Source of the DNA: an uncultured Flavobacteriales bacterium
GTDB lineage: Bacteria; Bacteroidota; Bacteroidia; Flavobacteriales_D; Crocinitomicaceae
DNA length: 64,000 nucleotides
NCBI GenBank assembly: GCA_903939755.1
Contig: CAJAII010000007.1
Location: forward strand, 1 to 64,000
Reading direction: 5' to 3'
The notes beneath the pieces are model-generated. The model saw only the letters and a list, made by a program, of their open reading frames with translations, did not search any database and was not told where the DNA came from. The first letter of the stretch is position 1; every line of letters begins with the position of its first letter. The position numbers were made by a program, and so were the translations under genes. Shown in pieces: positions 49,836 to 56,551 of this stretch.

Positions 49836-52800
49836 TTAGCGAATTAAATGGAAGAAACCGTAATAGGTTGGACTTGAATTCTCAGTAAAAATAATTGTGT
49901 AAACACCTTCCACTAGTGGTTTTCCGCCAAGATCTTCGCCCTTCCAATTGTTTTGATAGTTATCGGATTCAAAGACTAAATCTCCCCATCTATTTAATAT
50001 CAGAAGCTTTGAATTTGGTTTAAGACCATCAATCGTGAAAAAATCATTTGAGCCATCGCTATTTGGTGTAAAAACATTCGGAACGGTGAATTCGTCGTAG
50101 ACAACAATATTTTGTGTAATTGTATCTGCACAACCTTGGTTGTTACTCACTATTAATTGAACTGGATACGTTCCTTCTAAAGAAAAGGAATAGGGGATAG
50201 GTGAGTTGTTAAATGGCTGTCCACTGATTAACCAGTTTTCAATGGTCCAATTTCCTGACGATGTATTTGTAAAGGTGATTACTTCATTTAAGTCTGGGTC
50301 TATTGGTGTAAAGGAAAAATTGGCAATTGGGTAGGTAGGGGGCGTTAAAATAATATTGGAAAGTGTATCCGAGCAATTGGAAGTTAAATCCAATACGACG
50401 AGGGTATAATTGCCAGCTGATAAATTGGAAATATCCAAGGTGTTTTGATTGGTATTACTCCATGTGTATGAGAAATTACCTGTGCCGTTGCTAACCTGAA
50501 TTCCACTTATACTTCCTAATTGTAGACAAGTCGGTTGAATCAAATTGAGTAATGTAGCATCAATTAATGGGGCTGTGTATCCTGTAATATTGAGCGATAT
50601 ACTATCCGAACAATTATTTTGATTGGTAACAATTAAAACATAAGTCCCCTCAATAAGATTTGGGTTGTCTAAAGTGGTAGTTCCATTTGACCAAAGGTAA
50701 GTGTTTGCAGTACCGCTTACGCTCAATCCACTAATTCCACCAAGCGTTCCGTCACATTGTACCATAGCTAAATTCAGTCCATTTGTACCGATCGAAGGGC
50801 CGCCATTTGTAGAAATAAGCAAGGGACCAAGGCTATCCGAACAGCCAAATACATCGGTCACATACAAGGTATAAGTTCCTCCTGATAAATTAACGATGTC
50901 CAAGCTTGCTTGAGCGGTGTTATTCCAAGTAATTACATAAGGAAGGGTTCCTCCGCTTACTGTAATTCCAGTTATTGAACCGTTATTTTGATTGCAATCA
51001 TCTGGTGTTAATACGGCGGTATTGGCAATGGTCGGTGGACTTGTATTATTAACAGTAACTGGCCCAAATTGTGCGGAACAGCCATTTGTATCTGTCACAG
51101 TAAGCGTATAGTTTCCTGCTGATAGATTTGTTAGATTATTGGTGGTAATTCCTGAAGGATTCCATGCGTAGTTAAGACCAACACCATTTGCTGTAAGGCC
51201 TGAGATGGAACCATTACCCTGAAAACAATTTTCGTCTGTTACTTGTAATTGAGTTCCGTTTATCGTTGGTCCACTAATAAAAGGAACGGTGAATGGCCCA
51301 GCTGTTGCTACACAACCATTTCCATCGGTAACGGTTAATGTGTAATTTCCGGCTACTAAATTACTAGGATTGATGGAAGAGCTCGCTGTTCCTGTCCAAC
51401 TATAACTTAAATTGGTCCCTTGTGCAGTTAACCCGTTGATACTACCAAATGTTCCATTACAAGACTGGGAAATTATGCTAATTCCTACTGCATTGACTAT
51501 TGGTCCTGCAGTTCCCAAAATTGTGTATGCGGTACTTGAACTAGCGCAGCCAAGTGCATCTGTTACGGTAAGTGTATAAAGCCCTGGAATAAGATTAGAA
51601 ATCGATGCAGTTGGTGAAATAACGCCATTCCATGAATAAACATAGGGTTGTGTCCCACCTGTAGCGCCCAGCCCTGAAATTGAGCCAGCACTTATGCAAG
51701 TTGAATTCGTTACAATTGCCACTCCGTTAATCGTTGGAGGTGTACTTACAAATACTGTTACGGGCTTTCTAAAACTTCCTGGACAAATTCCAATCCAGTA
51801 AGTGGTAGTGGCATTAACAACTGGTGTTGTATATGAATTTCCTGTCGCAACTACCGTATTTCCAAATGCGCTTGTATACCACGTTAATAATCCGGGAGGA
51901 GGATTGCCGATTGTTGAAGCTGTTAATGTTACGGATCCACCCGCACAAATGGTATCATTTGCAGCAATGATGTCAAAAAAGGACGAATTGGTGGTAGTCG
52001 TTCCAGCGCCCCCTGCAGTTGCACCATTAGGAGGAAAATTAGTTACATGTGCAGAGTTTGTGGTACCATTCGTTCCACCTATGACACTTTGAGTAGCTGT
52101 TCCAGCTGTAATGGAAATAAGTCCACCACCACCACCACCACCGGGGCCATCTGCCTCCATTGTTGGATTAGAAGCAAATAAACCAACCGATAACACTTGT
52201 GTGCCGCCAGCGCCCCCTTTGCTATCAAGCATTAAAGAAGGAGGTAGCGTTCCAGCATTTGAAATATAAATGGTTCCGCCGCCACCTGCGCCACCTGCTG
52301 CATCGTTACCGTATTTTATAGCAGAGGTTTGCGGTGCAGTTAATCCAGCGAAATTGGCATTTTGACCAGCTGCCCCACTTGCTTCAATTGTTCCCGGTCC
52401 ACTTACGGTACCATATACTTTTATAAAAGCGATTCCCCCACCGCGACCACCGTTTCCACCTTGACTATTGTTTTGGTCGCCTGCCCCACCGCCACCGCCA
52501 GCAAAGATGCGTGTTGCGTCTAATGCTAAAGGATGTCCACCTAATCCACCTTCTTTTCTACGATAATCTCCTCCCCAAGCTGTATTGTTTGGCCCAATAG
52601 TCAATTCATTTTGATCAATGGTGGATCCGGAATAACCGCCTCTTCCTCCGCCTGAACTAAACGATCCGCCGAATCCTGCGCCCTCGAGATTCCAAGCGGT
52701 ATTATAAATTGGATTTGGCACTCCTTTTCCGGTATACGTACCAGTTGCCACATTAGAGCCACCTCCACCACCAGCGTTGTGATTTCCTCCGCCTCCTCCG

Positions 52801-53642
52801 CCATTAGCGGGAGCAGATTTACAATACCTGGAGTATATAGCATCGTATTCTACATAGAATCCGGCAATTCCTTCTCCTTTTTCAGCGCCTTGGGTTGAAA
52901 CATGCGAAGCGCAAAAACCAATATTGTTAACACTTCCTGGAGGAGCTCCCAAGGTAAAATCTTCCGTTTGTCCACCGCGGAATCCAGCGCCCGTGGCAGA
53001 TATTTTACTTGCTGTATTAAATACAAGGTTTCCATTAATTTCCAACGCGACGATTCCACCTGAATTACCGTTCCACAAAGACGGAACAATCGAAGCATTC
53101 GCATTTAATGTCAGGTTGGCATACCTGGGAATGCGAACTATTTGTACATGTCCGCTGGCCGTGTACGAATTCACCAAAGGACACATCAGATTAATAGTAT
53201 TTGCACCTGAAACTGATTTTACTTCTGCTAATTCAAATTTTCCTGCATTATTATATGCGGCAATCTCCCCCCATAAATTTTGGTATTGATTCCAATCATT
53301 TAAATGACCAATAGGTGTGGTATATGGCCCCCAAAACATTCCATTGGAAGTCACGTATTCGTTGGCTGCATAAGTATCTACATTCATAGTAGCACCTTGC
53401 ATTTGTATAATTAGTAGTAAATCCCCGGGAGCTAAATTTAAGGTGAAGAATCCTCCGTTTAATGTATTGTTGAATGCTGAAACGACAGATTGTCCTGCAG
53501 TTGCATTTGAAAGTAAATATGAATAGCTGTTTAGCGTGGTATTTGAAGCATTAACGGTATAGTTTCCATCCTTTGCACGTTGTGAATGAGCATTATAGCT
53601 AGATAAAAATAATATTAATGTGGATATTACTATATATTTCAT
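49836..53642 (-). CDS. Giant secreted SprB-repeat protein with T9SS type B C-terminal domain
   Basis: 1268 aa from ATG 53642. Signal peptide ([20 protein letters not shown]), then a beta-helix-like region and a very glycine-rich region (about 260-520; GGGGGG stretches with Asn and Ser). After an Ig-like CHU domain ([15 protein letters not shown]), six SprB-type repeats of about 80 residues follow, each with [13 protein letters not shown] and a GC, then a PKD-like domain. The last about 75 residues ([37 protein letters not shown]) are the gliding-motility-associated type B domain. Likely a surface adhesin or motility-related protein. No catalytic motif is seen. Confidence 0.88.
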
Positions 53643-53668
53643 GTATGAATTTGAGTTTTTAGGACGTA

Positions 53669-53676
53669 TAAAGATA
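53669..53676 (-). promoter_or_regulatory. Putative -7 box TATCTTTA for the SprB-repeat protein
   Basis: Minus strand TATCTTTA, 26 bases before ATG 53642. An alternative reading TTGACA-N17-TACGTC overlaps it. Confidence 0.35.
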
Positions 53677-53723
53677 GTCATTCGTTGTCAATCGATTAAA
53701 TAAAAATGGTGTATCTAATAAAA

Positions 53724-54507: not shown

Positions 54508-54990
54508 TTACTTAACCGAACAAAGTTTTTCGACAATTGCTGCAACTGCCGGACAAATTTGCGTATTAGCCGCTGTTAATTCTAATATTTGATACATGTT
54601 TTTTCGATTGGTGTGTGGATATTCTCTACAAGCTAAGGGCCTATATTCATATATGCTACACGTATTATCCGCTTCAAGAAAGGCACAAGGCGATGTTTTT
54701 AAAACTAAGTCGCTATCCTCATCCATTCTTAAATAGTTGTCTATAAATTGACTTTCTTTTAACCTCAAGTGTTTGGCAATTCTTTTCACATCAGTGTCTC
54801 GAAAAATAGGACTGGTCGTTTTACAACAATTAGCACAATTAAGGCAATCTCTATTCTTAAATTCAGCTTCATGCGCAACTCTAAAAACATCATCCAGGCG
54901 TTTGACACTTTTTAATTTTAGGGTCGCTTTTTTAATCGCCTGTTTATCTTTTATTGCTTTTTCCAGCAAAAGTTGATCATCTAATTTCAT
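54508..54990 (-). CDS. YkgJ-family cysteine-cluster protein
   Basis: 160 aa from ATG 54990; a TTG three codons upstream is possible but less likely. The family pattern is CLNCANCC (about 49-56), a further Cys in SPCAF, then CSIYEYRPLACREYP. The cysteines suggest zinc or iron-sulfur binding. The YkgJ family includes zinc/iron-chelating proteins of unknown role and is common next to unrelated genes. Followed by a GT2 gene after seven bases, with which it may form an operon. It is divergent from the flavoprotein gene at 55061. Confidence 0.85.
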   Translation of the reverse strand: MKLDDQLLLEKAIKDKQAIKKATLKLKSVKRLDDVFRVAHEAEFKNRDCLNCANCCKTTSPIFRDTDVKRIAKHLRLKESQFIDNYLRMDEDSDLVLKTSPCAFLEADNTCSIYEYRPLACREYPHTNRKNMYQILELTAANTQICPAVAAIVEKLCSVK

Positions 54991-55060
54991 TGGTACCAAT
55001 TCAAAAAATCAATTTAAAATCCTATAACAATCATTATATTTACGCGAATTTAGTGAAAGA

Positions 55061-56551
55061 ATGGAAGAATTTGATCTTATTGTAATTGGAGGTGGACCTG
55101 CCGGGTATGCCGCCGCAATGCGAGGAATTGATTTTGGCAAGCGAATTTGTCTGATTGAAAAAGATAAAGTAGGAGGGGCAGGCGTCTATAATGGCGCTCT
55201 TTCCTCTAAAACATTGTGGGAATTATCTTGCCGCGTAGCAGATATTAACGACATGATCGTCGCTAAAGGAAGGTCTAGGTTTGAATTGAAATGGGAGGAG
55301 GCTAGGCAAATTCTTGCTGAGGCAATCTTTGAGCGAAAATTCCAATATTCTGCGCATATTAAGTTAATGCAGACTGAGTCCATGAATAATTTACTGCATT
55401 ATGAAAAAGGACATGCCATGCTTATGGATGAGCATCGTGTTAAAATAAATCATGAAGGCGAAGAGAAAATAATTTTTGGACACAATATCATTCTTGCTAC
55501 CGGAAGTCGGCCGCGTGCGCTGCCAAATATTGAAGTAGATGGTAAGGTAATTATGACCAGTGATGGCATAGATTCCATATCAGACTATCCTAAAAGTATG
55601 GTTATTGTTGGTGCTGGGGTAATTGGATGTGAATACGCAACCATATTTTCAAATTTCGGAAAAACAAAGGTTCATATAATTGATCGTCAAGAAAGAATTT
55701 TGCCTTTCGAAGATGAGGATATTGCTAAATTAGTTTCTAAAAACCTAAGTAAAAATGGTGTGGTACTTCATTCCAATGCTCAATTAGAACGATTAGAAAG
55801 AATAGGCGATGAAGTAGAATATGAATTGTCATATCCTGATGGTTCGCGTGAAGTAATAAGGGTTGAAAAAGCGCTTTTATCGGTAGGAAGACAGCCAAAT
55901 ATTGAAGGAATTGGCCTTGAAAATGCTGGTGTCACGCTTTCAAAACGAGGGGTGCATATTGGAGATGATGATACACGGACAAATATTCCTCATATCTACG
56001 CTATTGGAGATGTTTCTGGAAGAATTGCTTTGGTAAATGTGGGTGAAATTGAAGGAAGGCATGCCGTTGAAAAGGCATTTGGTGAAACACCGGATAAACT
56101 CAATTACGATAATATCTGTACGATCATGTTTCTTGCCCCAGAGGTAGCATCCGTTGGATTAAACGAACAACAATGCGTGGAGAAAAATATTCCTGTGAAG
56201 GTTGTGAAAATTGATTACTCGTTGATTTCAAGAGCAATTGCCATGCGGAAAACACAAGGTTTTTTCAAGATAATAGTGACAAATGATAGTGAAATGCGCA
56301 TCTTGGGTATGCGCGTGGTTGGTGCACATGCCTCAACGGCTATTCAAGCAATAGGCTTATTAATTAAACTCAACTTGCCGATTGAAGTCTTGGCAGAATT
56401 AGTGCATCCGCATCCTTCGATTGTGGAAGGAATTCAAGAATGTGTTCGCATGCTCTTAAATAAGTCAATTTTTAAATCATCTGTTTTCAAAGATAAATTA
56501 GCTTGTTATTCCTTAGTTAATGGTGTGAAAACGCCGTTGGATAGAATGTAA
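55061..56551 (+). CDS. Lipoamide-dehydrogenase-like flavoprotein lacking the redox disulfide
   Basis: 496 aa. FAD site GGGPAGYAAAM (10-20), NAD(P) site VIVGAGVIGCEYATIFSNFG (about 185-205), second FAD site HIYAIGDVSG and dimerisation domain with HPHPSIVEGIQE, where the catalytic His-Glu pair is kept. The expected C-x4-C redox motif (GGTCLNxGCIPSK) reads VGGAGVYNGALSSK at 37-50: the cysteines are Gly41 and Ala46. So it cannot run the normal disulfide chemistry of lipoamide dehydrogenase or glutathione reductase. A transhydrogenase-like or other NAD(P)H oxidoreductase role is possible. An in-frame promoter-like TATATTTA lies 18 bases before the ATG. Confidence 0.85.
   Translation: MEEFDLIVIGGGPAGYAAAMRGIDFGKRICLIEKDKVGGAGVYNGALSSKTLWELSCRVADINDMIVAKGRSRFELKWEEARQILAEAIFERKFQYSAHIKLMQTESMNNLLHYEKGHAMLMDEHRVKINHEGEEKIIFGHNIILATGSRPRALPNIEVDGKVIMTSDGIDSISDYPKSMVIVGAGVIGCEYATIFSNFGKTKVHIIDRQERILPFEDEDIAKLVSKNLSKNGVVLHSNAQLERLERIGDEVEYELSYPDGSREVIRVEKALLSVGRQPNIEGIGLENAGVTLSKRGVHIGDDDTRTNIPHIYAIGDVSGRIALVNVGEIEGRHAVEKAFGETPDKLNYDNICTIMFLAPEVASVGLNEQQCVEKNIPVKVVKIDYSLISRAIAMRKTQGFFKIIVTNDSEMRILGMRVVGAHASTAIQAIGLLIKLNLPIEVLAELVHPHPSIVEGIQECVRMLLNKSIFKSSVFKDKLACYSLVNGVKTPLDRM

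Follow-up and report, generated by a model that had tools for sequence, protein, structure and literature searches.

The window analysed here, a 64,000-nucleotide stretch from an uncultured bacterium of the Crocinitomicaceae, carries the gene of a flavoprotein that keeps the FAD- and NAD-binding motifs of the disulfide reductases and has no cysteine at either position of their redox disulfide. This protein belongs to a real, discrete and conserved family of Bacteroidota, which sequence trees place as a fully supported third clade in the group of dihydrolipoyl dehydrogenases (LPD, or E3) and soluble NAD(P) transhydrogenases (STH, the SthA type). On the strength of the sequence and of analogy with characterised proteins, we give a probability of about 0.55 to the reading that the protein would share the LPD/STH fold and use its FAD to oxidise NADH without a redox disulfide, and that its acceptor, as a best guess, may be a quinone-like or small organic molecule.

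The gene and the features discussed below are collected in Table 1. The window protein matches Pyr_redox_2 (PF07992; 185.6 bits, 1.8e-54) and Pyr_redox_dim (PF02852; 90.5 bits, 1e-25), both above the gathering cut-offs, and its Gly41 and Ala46 align to the CxxxxC motif of LPD in the solved structures 1ebd, 6uzi and 1jeh. Invariance was judged on 37 aligned rows taken from the 137 family loci in hand, and besides the residues in the table it extends to Tyr16, Glu33, Lys50, Glu191 and Gly316-Asp317. An earlier note, made from the letters of the DNA, had claimed that both redox cysteines are replaced while the FAD and NAD motifs and the His-Glu dyad remain; the translation and the invariance across all 37 rows bear this out. 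The same genome encodes two full-length paralogues with an ordinary CxxxxC motif (L002, GGVCLNWGCIPTK; L003, GGTCLNVGCIPSK), so that lipoamide reduction is probably covered there.

Table 1. Features of the flavoprotein gene and its divergent neighbour, in positions of the window. Residue counts are alignment rows unless different proteins are named.
Feature	Position	Strand	Remarks
Gene of the disulfide-free flavoprotein	55061..56551	+	496 aa plus stop, uninterrupted ORF; Pfam Pyr_redox_2, Pyr_redox_dim
FAD-binding GxGxxG, residues 10-15	55088..55105	+	G10, G12, G15 invariant in 37/37 family rows
Former redox-disulfide segment GGAGVYNGALSSK, residues 38-50	55172..55210	+	translation, family motif scan
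Gly41 codon, at first redox Cys position	55181..55183	+	family Gly 34, Ala 3 of 37; LPD Cys 11/11
Ala46 codon, at second redox Cys position	55196..55198	+	family Ala 37/37; STH Thr 31/31; LPD Cys 11/11
NAD-binding GAGVIG, residues 184-189	55610..55627	+	G184, G186, G189 invariant in 37/37
Asp208, end of second strand of NAD domain	55682..55684	+	family Asp 37/37; LPD Glu 10/11; STH Asn 16, Ser 8, Asp 3, others, of 31
His451 of dyad	56411..56413	+	family His 37/37; LPD His 11/11; STH Tyr 28, Phe 3 of 31
Glu456 of dyad	56426..56428	+	family Glu 37/37; STH 29/31; LPD 11/11
Cys461, family-specific	56441..56443	+	110/110 different family proteins; Ala in 31/31 STH and 11/11 LPD rows
C-terminal extension, residues 475-496, predicted strands	56483..56548	+	pLDDT 68-91 by block, residues 471-496
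Cys482 in C-terminal extension	56504..56506	+	109/110 different family proteins
Divergent neighbour, CxxCxxCC protein (PF03692, YkgJ type)	54508..54999	-	61 bases from flavoprotein gene

The replacement is a property of the family. The whole motif, with Gly or Ala at position 41 and Ala at 46, is readable in 136 of the 137 family loci, which encode 110 different proteins; at the remaining locus, L066, the frame is interrupted immediately ahead of the motif, yet the same two places read Gly and Ala. (This family member comes from a metagenome assembly, and its broken frame may reflect either an assembly error or a pseudogene.) Comparison of the gene with close kin gives dN/dS between 0.019 and 0.074 in four of seven pairs, three of these four being rough because dS exceeds 1.5; in the other three pairs dS is beyond correction. 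Purifying selection acts on the gene, as these four pairs indicate. Because 137 of 137 loci agree at positions 41 (Gly or Ala) and 46 (Ala), a sequencing error at the two codons, which the earlier note had named as something that would undo its claim, is ruled out, and with purifying selection added so is a pseudogene.

The family is also sharply bounded. A profile built from 31 members (A1) finds it in 8 of 395 phylum genomes, each scoring at least 776 bits, with a drop to 325 bits for the match that follows. In a 296-genome phylum sample, seven genomes including the window's own hold a member above 500 bits (the other six members at 49-56% identity), while the next matches reach at most 258 bits, and the 21 of these that we fetched all have an intact Cys pair. 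The earlier supposition of a conserved and uncharacterised Bacteroidota group thus held up: 137 loci are in hand, and searches of open-licence PubMed Central papers listed none whose title or opening abstract lines name the family.

What sets the family apart emerges from an alignment of 37 family rows with 31 STH and 11 LPD rows. The redox CxxxxC motif is present in 11/11 LPD rows and in 0/37 family rows. Position 53 is Trp in 37 family rows, Arg in 30 STH rows and Leu in 9 LPD rows; position 326 reads Asn (37), Ser (30) and His (11) in the same order; and position 48, Ser in 32 family rows, is Pro in every STH and LPD row. Position 208 is of the NADH type throughout the family. NADH is favoured by an acidic residue where the second NAD-domain strand ends, and by this rule Asp208 suggests a preference for that nucleotide. 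In LPD the His-Glu dyad acts on the site of the partner subunit, and the family keeps both of its residues. The C-terminus is longer than in the compared groups, and some members have further cysteines there: Cys485 occurs in eight members and Cys490 as well in six of them, all eight belonging to families of the order that differ from that of the window, and the sole protein that lacks Cys482, L174, has both Cys485 and Cys490. A Cys-rich tail of the CYSCVDGVC type is seen in L162, L164, L167, L168, L169 and L174, and in part in L112 and L173. Judging from these alignments, Ala46, the kept His-Glu dyad, Asp208 and the tail with two conserved cysteines are better diagnostics of the family than the loss of the redox cysteines.

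Searches with library models show how such a protein may be misread. Its best NCBIfam match is the dihydrolipoyl dehydrogenase model TIGR01350, at 381.5 bits just under the cut-off of 408.8 (30 other members match the same model with a best E-value of 2.1e-116), so that the family could easily be misnamed dihydrolipoyl dehydrogenase. The STH model NF003585 gives 297 bits against a cut-off of 465, the MerA model 285 bits, far under its cut-off, and the NAD(P)H-quinone dehydrogenase model NF005883, which we take to be a model of the LpdA type, 282.7 bits against 479. The predicted monomer (pLDDT 88.6, pTM 0.87; the five models average 73-89) has as its best fold match the LPD 2qae, with Z 42.1 and an rmsd of 2.1 A over 457 residues, followed among others by the STH 9n4y (Z 40.5) and the LpdA structure 1xdi (Z 39.5). 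Because many structures differ by less than 3 Z units, LPD, STH and LpdA cannot be told apart by fold, and since all 50 structure matches listed stop at model residue 475 or earlier, they have no bearing on the fold of residues 476-496.

LPD is one of the closest known systems. The family resembles it in fold, in the His-Glu dyad, in an acidic residue at position 208, in the top NCBIfam score and in the top match of a profile search of solved structures. It differs in having no CxxxxC motif, in scoring under the model's cut-off, in standing on a separate branch and in its surroundings, where 101 loci hold no E2-like neighbour: the C-terminal part of E. coli AceF, the E2 of a lipoamide complex, finds no match with E up to 1 among the 1109 ORFs of these loci, family proteins included, while as a positive control the same query finds the end of Bacillus pdhC at 3e-40. 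The motif, the score gap and the separate clade rule out an ordinary LPD that has merely drifted, and the residues at the usual site rule out, as far as sequence can, dihydrolipoyl dehydrogenase activity there.

To ask which of the two groups lies closer, we turn to the trees. The careful tree, built from 55 proteins, has three separate branches, namely the family (25 rows, support 100/100), STH (15 rows, 100/100) and LPD (11 rows, 100/99), and the family lies outside the STH clade as its sister (98/93). The same sister placement, with support 82, came from a preceding quick tree of 53 rows in which STH was represented by E. coli SthA alone. Three of four further quick trees put the family with STH at 89-93, one of these without the active-site columns, whereas the fourth, with glutathione reductase (Gor) as the sole outgroup, joins family and LPD with support 0. 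An AU test leaves a clade of family and LPD unrejected (p = 0.184), mean identity of the family is 28.9% to LPD against 26.9% to STH, and a search of solved structures with the family profile ranks LPDs higher, 1ebd at 280.5 bits against the single STH, 9n4y, at 240.9 bits. A family tree had been proposed in the earlier note, and the one built here returns a fully supported separate clade; given the conflicting signals of trees, AU test and identity, we read it as a third clade for which STH is the more likely sister, a choice that these tests do not settle.

The comparison with STH also changes how the loss of both cysteines should be viewed. STHs have been defined by a CxxxxT motif together with a Tyr (YxxxxE) where the dyad would have His, according to PMC9460512, and the earlier note had held that double loss is unusual against SthA-type proteins, in which one Cys usually goes. 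This did not survive a look at the phylum. An STH-model match over the NCBIfam cut-off occurs in about 41-46 of 296 phylum genomes, and among the best 30 of 46 such matches (L179-L208), named STH from the NCBIfam model score alone, 27 have no Cys at either position (e.g. GGSNTHKGTIPSK, GGTWINTGTVPSK, GGAGVNTGTVPSK); the first Cys is kept only by L180, L186 and L189. Double loss is thus common among the STH-like proteins of Bacteroidota, and yeast Irc15p, discussed below, has no Cys pair either. It is important to note that the published CxxxxT signature fails for these 27, a point of relevance to metabolic modelling and to selecting enzymes when NADPH supply is engineered.

Could the family then be a variant soluble transhydrogenase, passing hydride from NADPH through FAD to NAD+, or in reverse, at one nucleotide site? 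We consider this the strongest of the alternatives and still an unlikely one. The sister placement in the careful tree and in three of the four quick trees argues for it, as do the FAD/NAD fold without a disulfide, the double Cys loss just described and Phe216, common to 36/37 family rows and 30/31 STH rows and found in 0/11 LPD rows. The role would also be vacant in the order, where 0 of 199 genomes hold an STH match over the cut-off. Against it, the STH score is far under that cut-off; the family has Ala46 where STH has Thr, His451 where STH has Tyr or Phe, and a tail with conserved cysteines; Asp208 favours NADH over NADPH by the rule given above; and the AU test, the identities and the structure-profile scores leave LPD a place, the last two slightly nearer LPD. 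The chemistry points the same way: in E. coli SthA, PMC9460512 reports that the C45A change costs about 10-fold in transhydrogenase activity, sends 37% of electrons to H2O2 and lowers coupling from 98% to 62%. Nor does the family behave as a stand-in for the membrane transhydrogenase, a candidate role we rejected since PntB occurs in 11 of the 81 order genomes that have the family and in 15 of the 118 that lack it (Fisher p = 1.0). In the phylum sample, an STH match is present in 0 of 7 family genomes and about 41-46 of 289 others, compared by eye and in numbers too few to judge.

We favour instead, as the most likely reading by analogy, a non-disulfide, NADH-dependent oxidoreductase of the diaphorase/quinone-reductase type. 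With no thiol beside the FAD, the usual site cannot carry out dithiol-disulfide exchange, and direct transfer from reduced FAD is the natural reading. The invariant FAD and NAD residues, Lys50, Glu191 and the dyad make a hydride route from NADH through FAD to an acceptor the most likely one. In this scheme NADH would reduce the FAD on one face, the opposite face, with Gly41 and Ala46, would present a small surface free of thiols, the acceptor would draw electrons directly from the reduced FAD at that surface, and His451-Glu456 of the partner subunit would probably serve in acid/base catalysis; the NADH preference, the hydride route and the acid/base role are what we infer from these residues. 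The direct-transfer chemistry suggested in the earlier note is plausible on the same residues, its premise on STH aside. The family offers a conserved experiment of nature on how the LPD/STH scaffold functions when the disulfide is gone and the acid/base dyad is intact.

Two characterised proteins supply the analogy, both as described in PMC6296175. Yeast Irc15p is LPD-like, has no Cys pair and keeps the dyad; it is reduced by NADH, which it prefers, has diaphorase activity and reduces menadione, ferricyanide and dyes, and is reported not to reduce lipoic acid, glutathione or cystine. Irc15p is a microtubule-associated paralogue of yeast LPD1, so the cysteines were presumably lost independently. 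M. tuberculosis LpdA (Rv3303c) is stated there to be a non-disulfide quinone reductase; unlike the family it keeps one Cys and has no His-Glu dyad (PMC6296175), and the window protein scores far under the cut-off of NF005883.

The two cysteines conserved outside the former disulfide are a counterpoint to this non-disulfide reading. They may replace the disulfide as a displaced thiol centre, with Cys482 of the tail and Cys461 (joined by Cys485 in eight members, six of which add Cys490) reaching the active site of the partner subunit and still reducing a disulfide, a peroxide or a metal ion. We hold this to be improbable, clearly more so than the transhydrogenase. In its favour are the near-invariance of both residues, with the one protein that lacks Cys482 carrying two other tail cysteines, the Ala that STH and LPD have at position 461, and the kept dyad. 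The authors of the Irc15p study read the dyad there as a possible sign of a retained dithiol-disulfide type of reaction (PMC6296175), and this favours the tail thiols over a non-disulfide oxidoreductase. Furthermore, in A. vinelandii LPD Tyr16 is stated in PMC6296175 to bond His470 across subunits, and Tyr16 is invariant in the family. On the other side, the usual place beside the FAD has no Cys to relay electrons, and position 461, within a predicted helix, takes small residues, so that a Cys there may only be packing. The stricter version, in which the redox thiols have moved rather than been lost and Cys482 of the family-specific tail and Cys461 would form a new redox centre with FAD and the partner's dyad, is slightly less probable again; if true, it would describe a flavoprotein reductase that relies on a tail thiol pair only, with no CxxxxC relay.

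Of the 199 order genomes, 81 carry the family, one copy each, a few of these being partial matches. Within the genus it is patchy (8 of 21 sampled genomes), and the genomes that have the gene are larger, averaging 2.79 Mb where those without it average 2.39 Mb (one-sided Mann-Whitney p = 0.006, uncorrected for descent). Conserved and under purifying selection, yet patchy and found in larger genomes, it fits a conserved accessory enzyme. The same dispensability is consistent with a redox sensor or structural flavoprotein that undergoes an NADH-driven conformational change and has no meaningful catalytic acceptor, as is the NADH-dependent conformational change reported for Irc15p (PMC6296175). 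We think this quite unlikely: the residues of the cofactor site and the dyad are invariant in 37/37 rows, and sensing alone would not need them.

Beyond these samples, a pattern scan of genome contigs, whose patterns reach close kin only, confirmed 98 relatives, of which 80 were kept at 65-99% identity. The records of 73 of these 80 are titled Flavobacteriia/Flavobacteriales, Crocinitomicaceae or its genera, or unplaced Bacteroidetes/Bacteroidia. Orthologues are present in Lishizhenia tianjinensis (L042) and Fluviicola chungangensis (L048). The other seven titles (L005, L021, L022, L039, L051, L060 and L083; 71-99% identity) look doubtful; they belong to metagenome-assembled genomes titled Chryseobacterium gleum, Chitinophaga pinensis or Polynucleobacter meluiroseus. 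Among at least 5000 plasmid records with a match, the best 60 include no relative (identity is at most 34.5% in those 60 and below 60% in all), and four plasmid records scored with the family profile, which was otherwise run on Bacteroidota genomes, reach 279 bits at most. Among viral contigs, 0 of 68 pattern matches were confirmed as relatives.

The gene neighbourhood, compared across 101 loci, names no acceptor, and its change between lineages is a further counterpoint to the oxidoreductase reading. The most constant neighbour is the divergent CxxCxxCC gene: in 58 of 101 loci, or 56 of 99 with different family proteins, a homologue lies directly next to the flavoprotein gene in divergent orientation. 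Its homologues occur in 155 of 199 order genomes against 81 of 199 for the family, and being far more widespread than the family they rule out a functional tie. A cluster that we take to be FolD-like is present in 32 of 101 loci, and all clusters other than these and the one described next are in fewer. A same-strand ORF lies downstream in 46 of 101 loci, and in 14 of 101 it is the same short one of 76 aa. The window also holds, at 49836-53681 on the minus strand, a large secreted-looking repeat protein whose end presumably resembles C-terminal domains of the gliding-motility type; members of its single-linkage cluster are found in 47 of the 101 loci.
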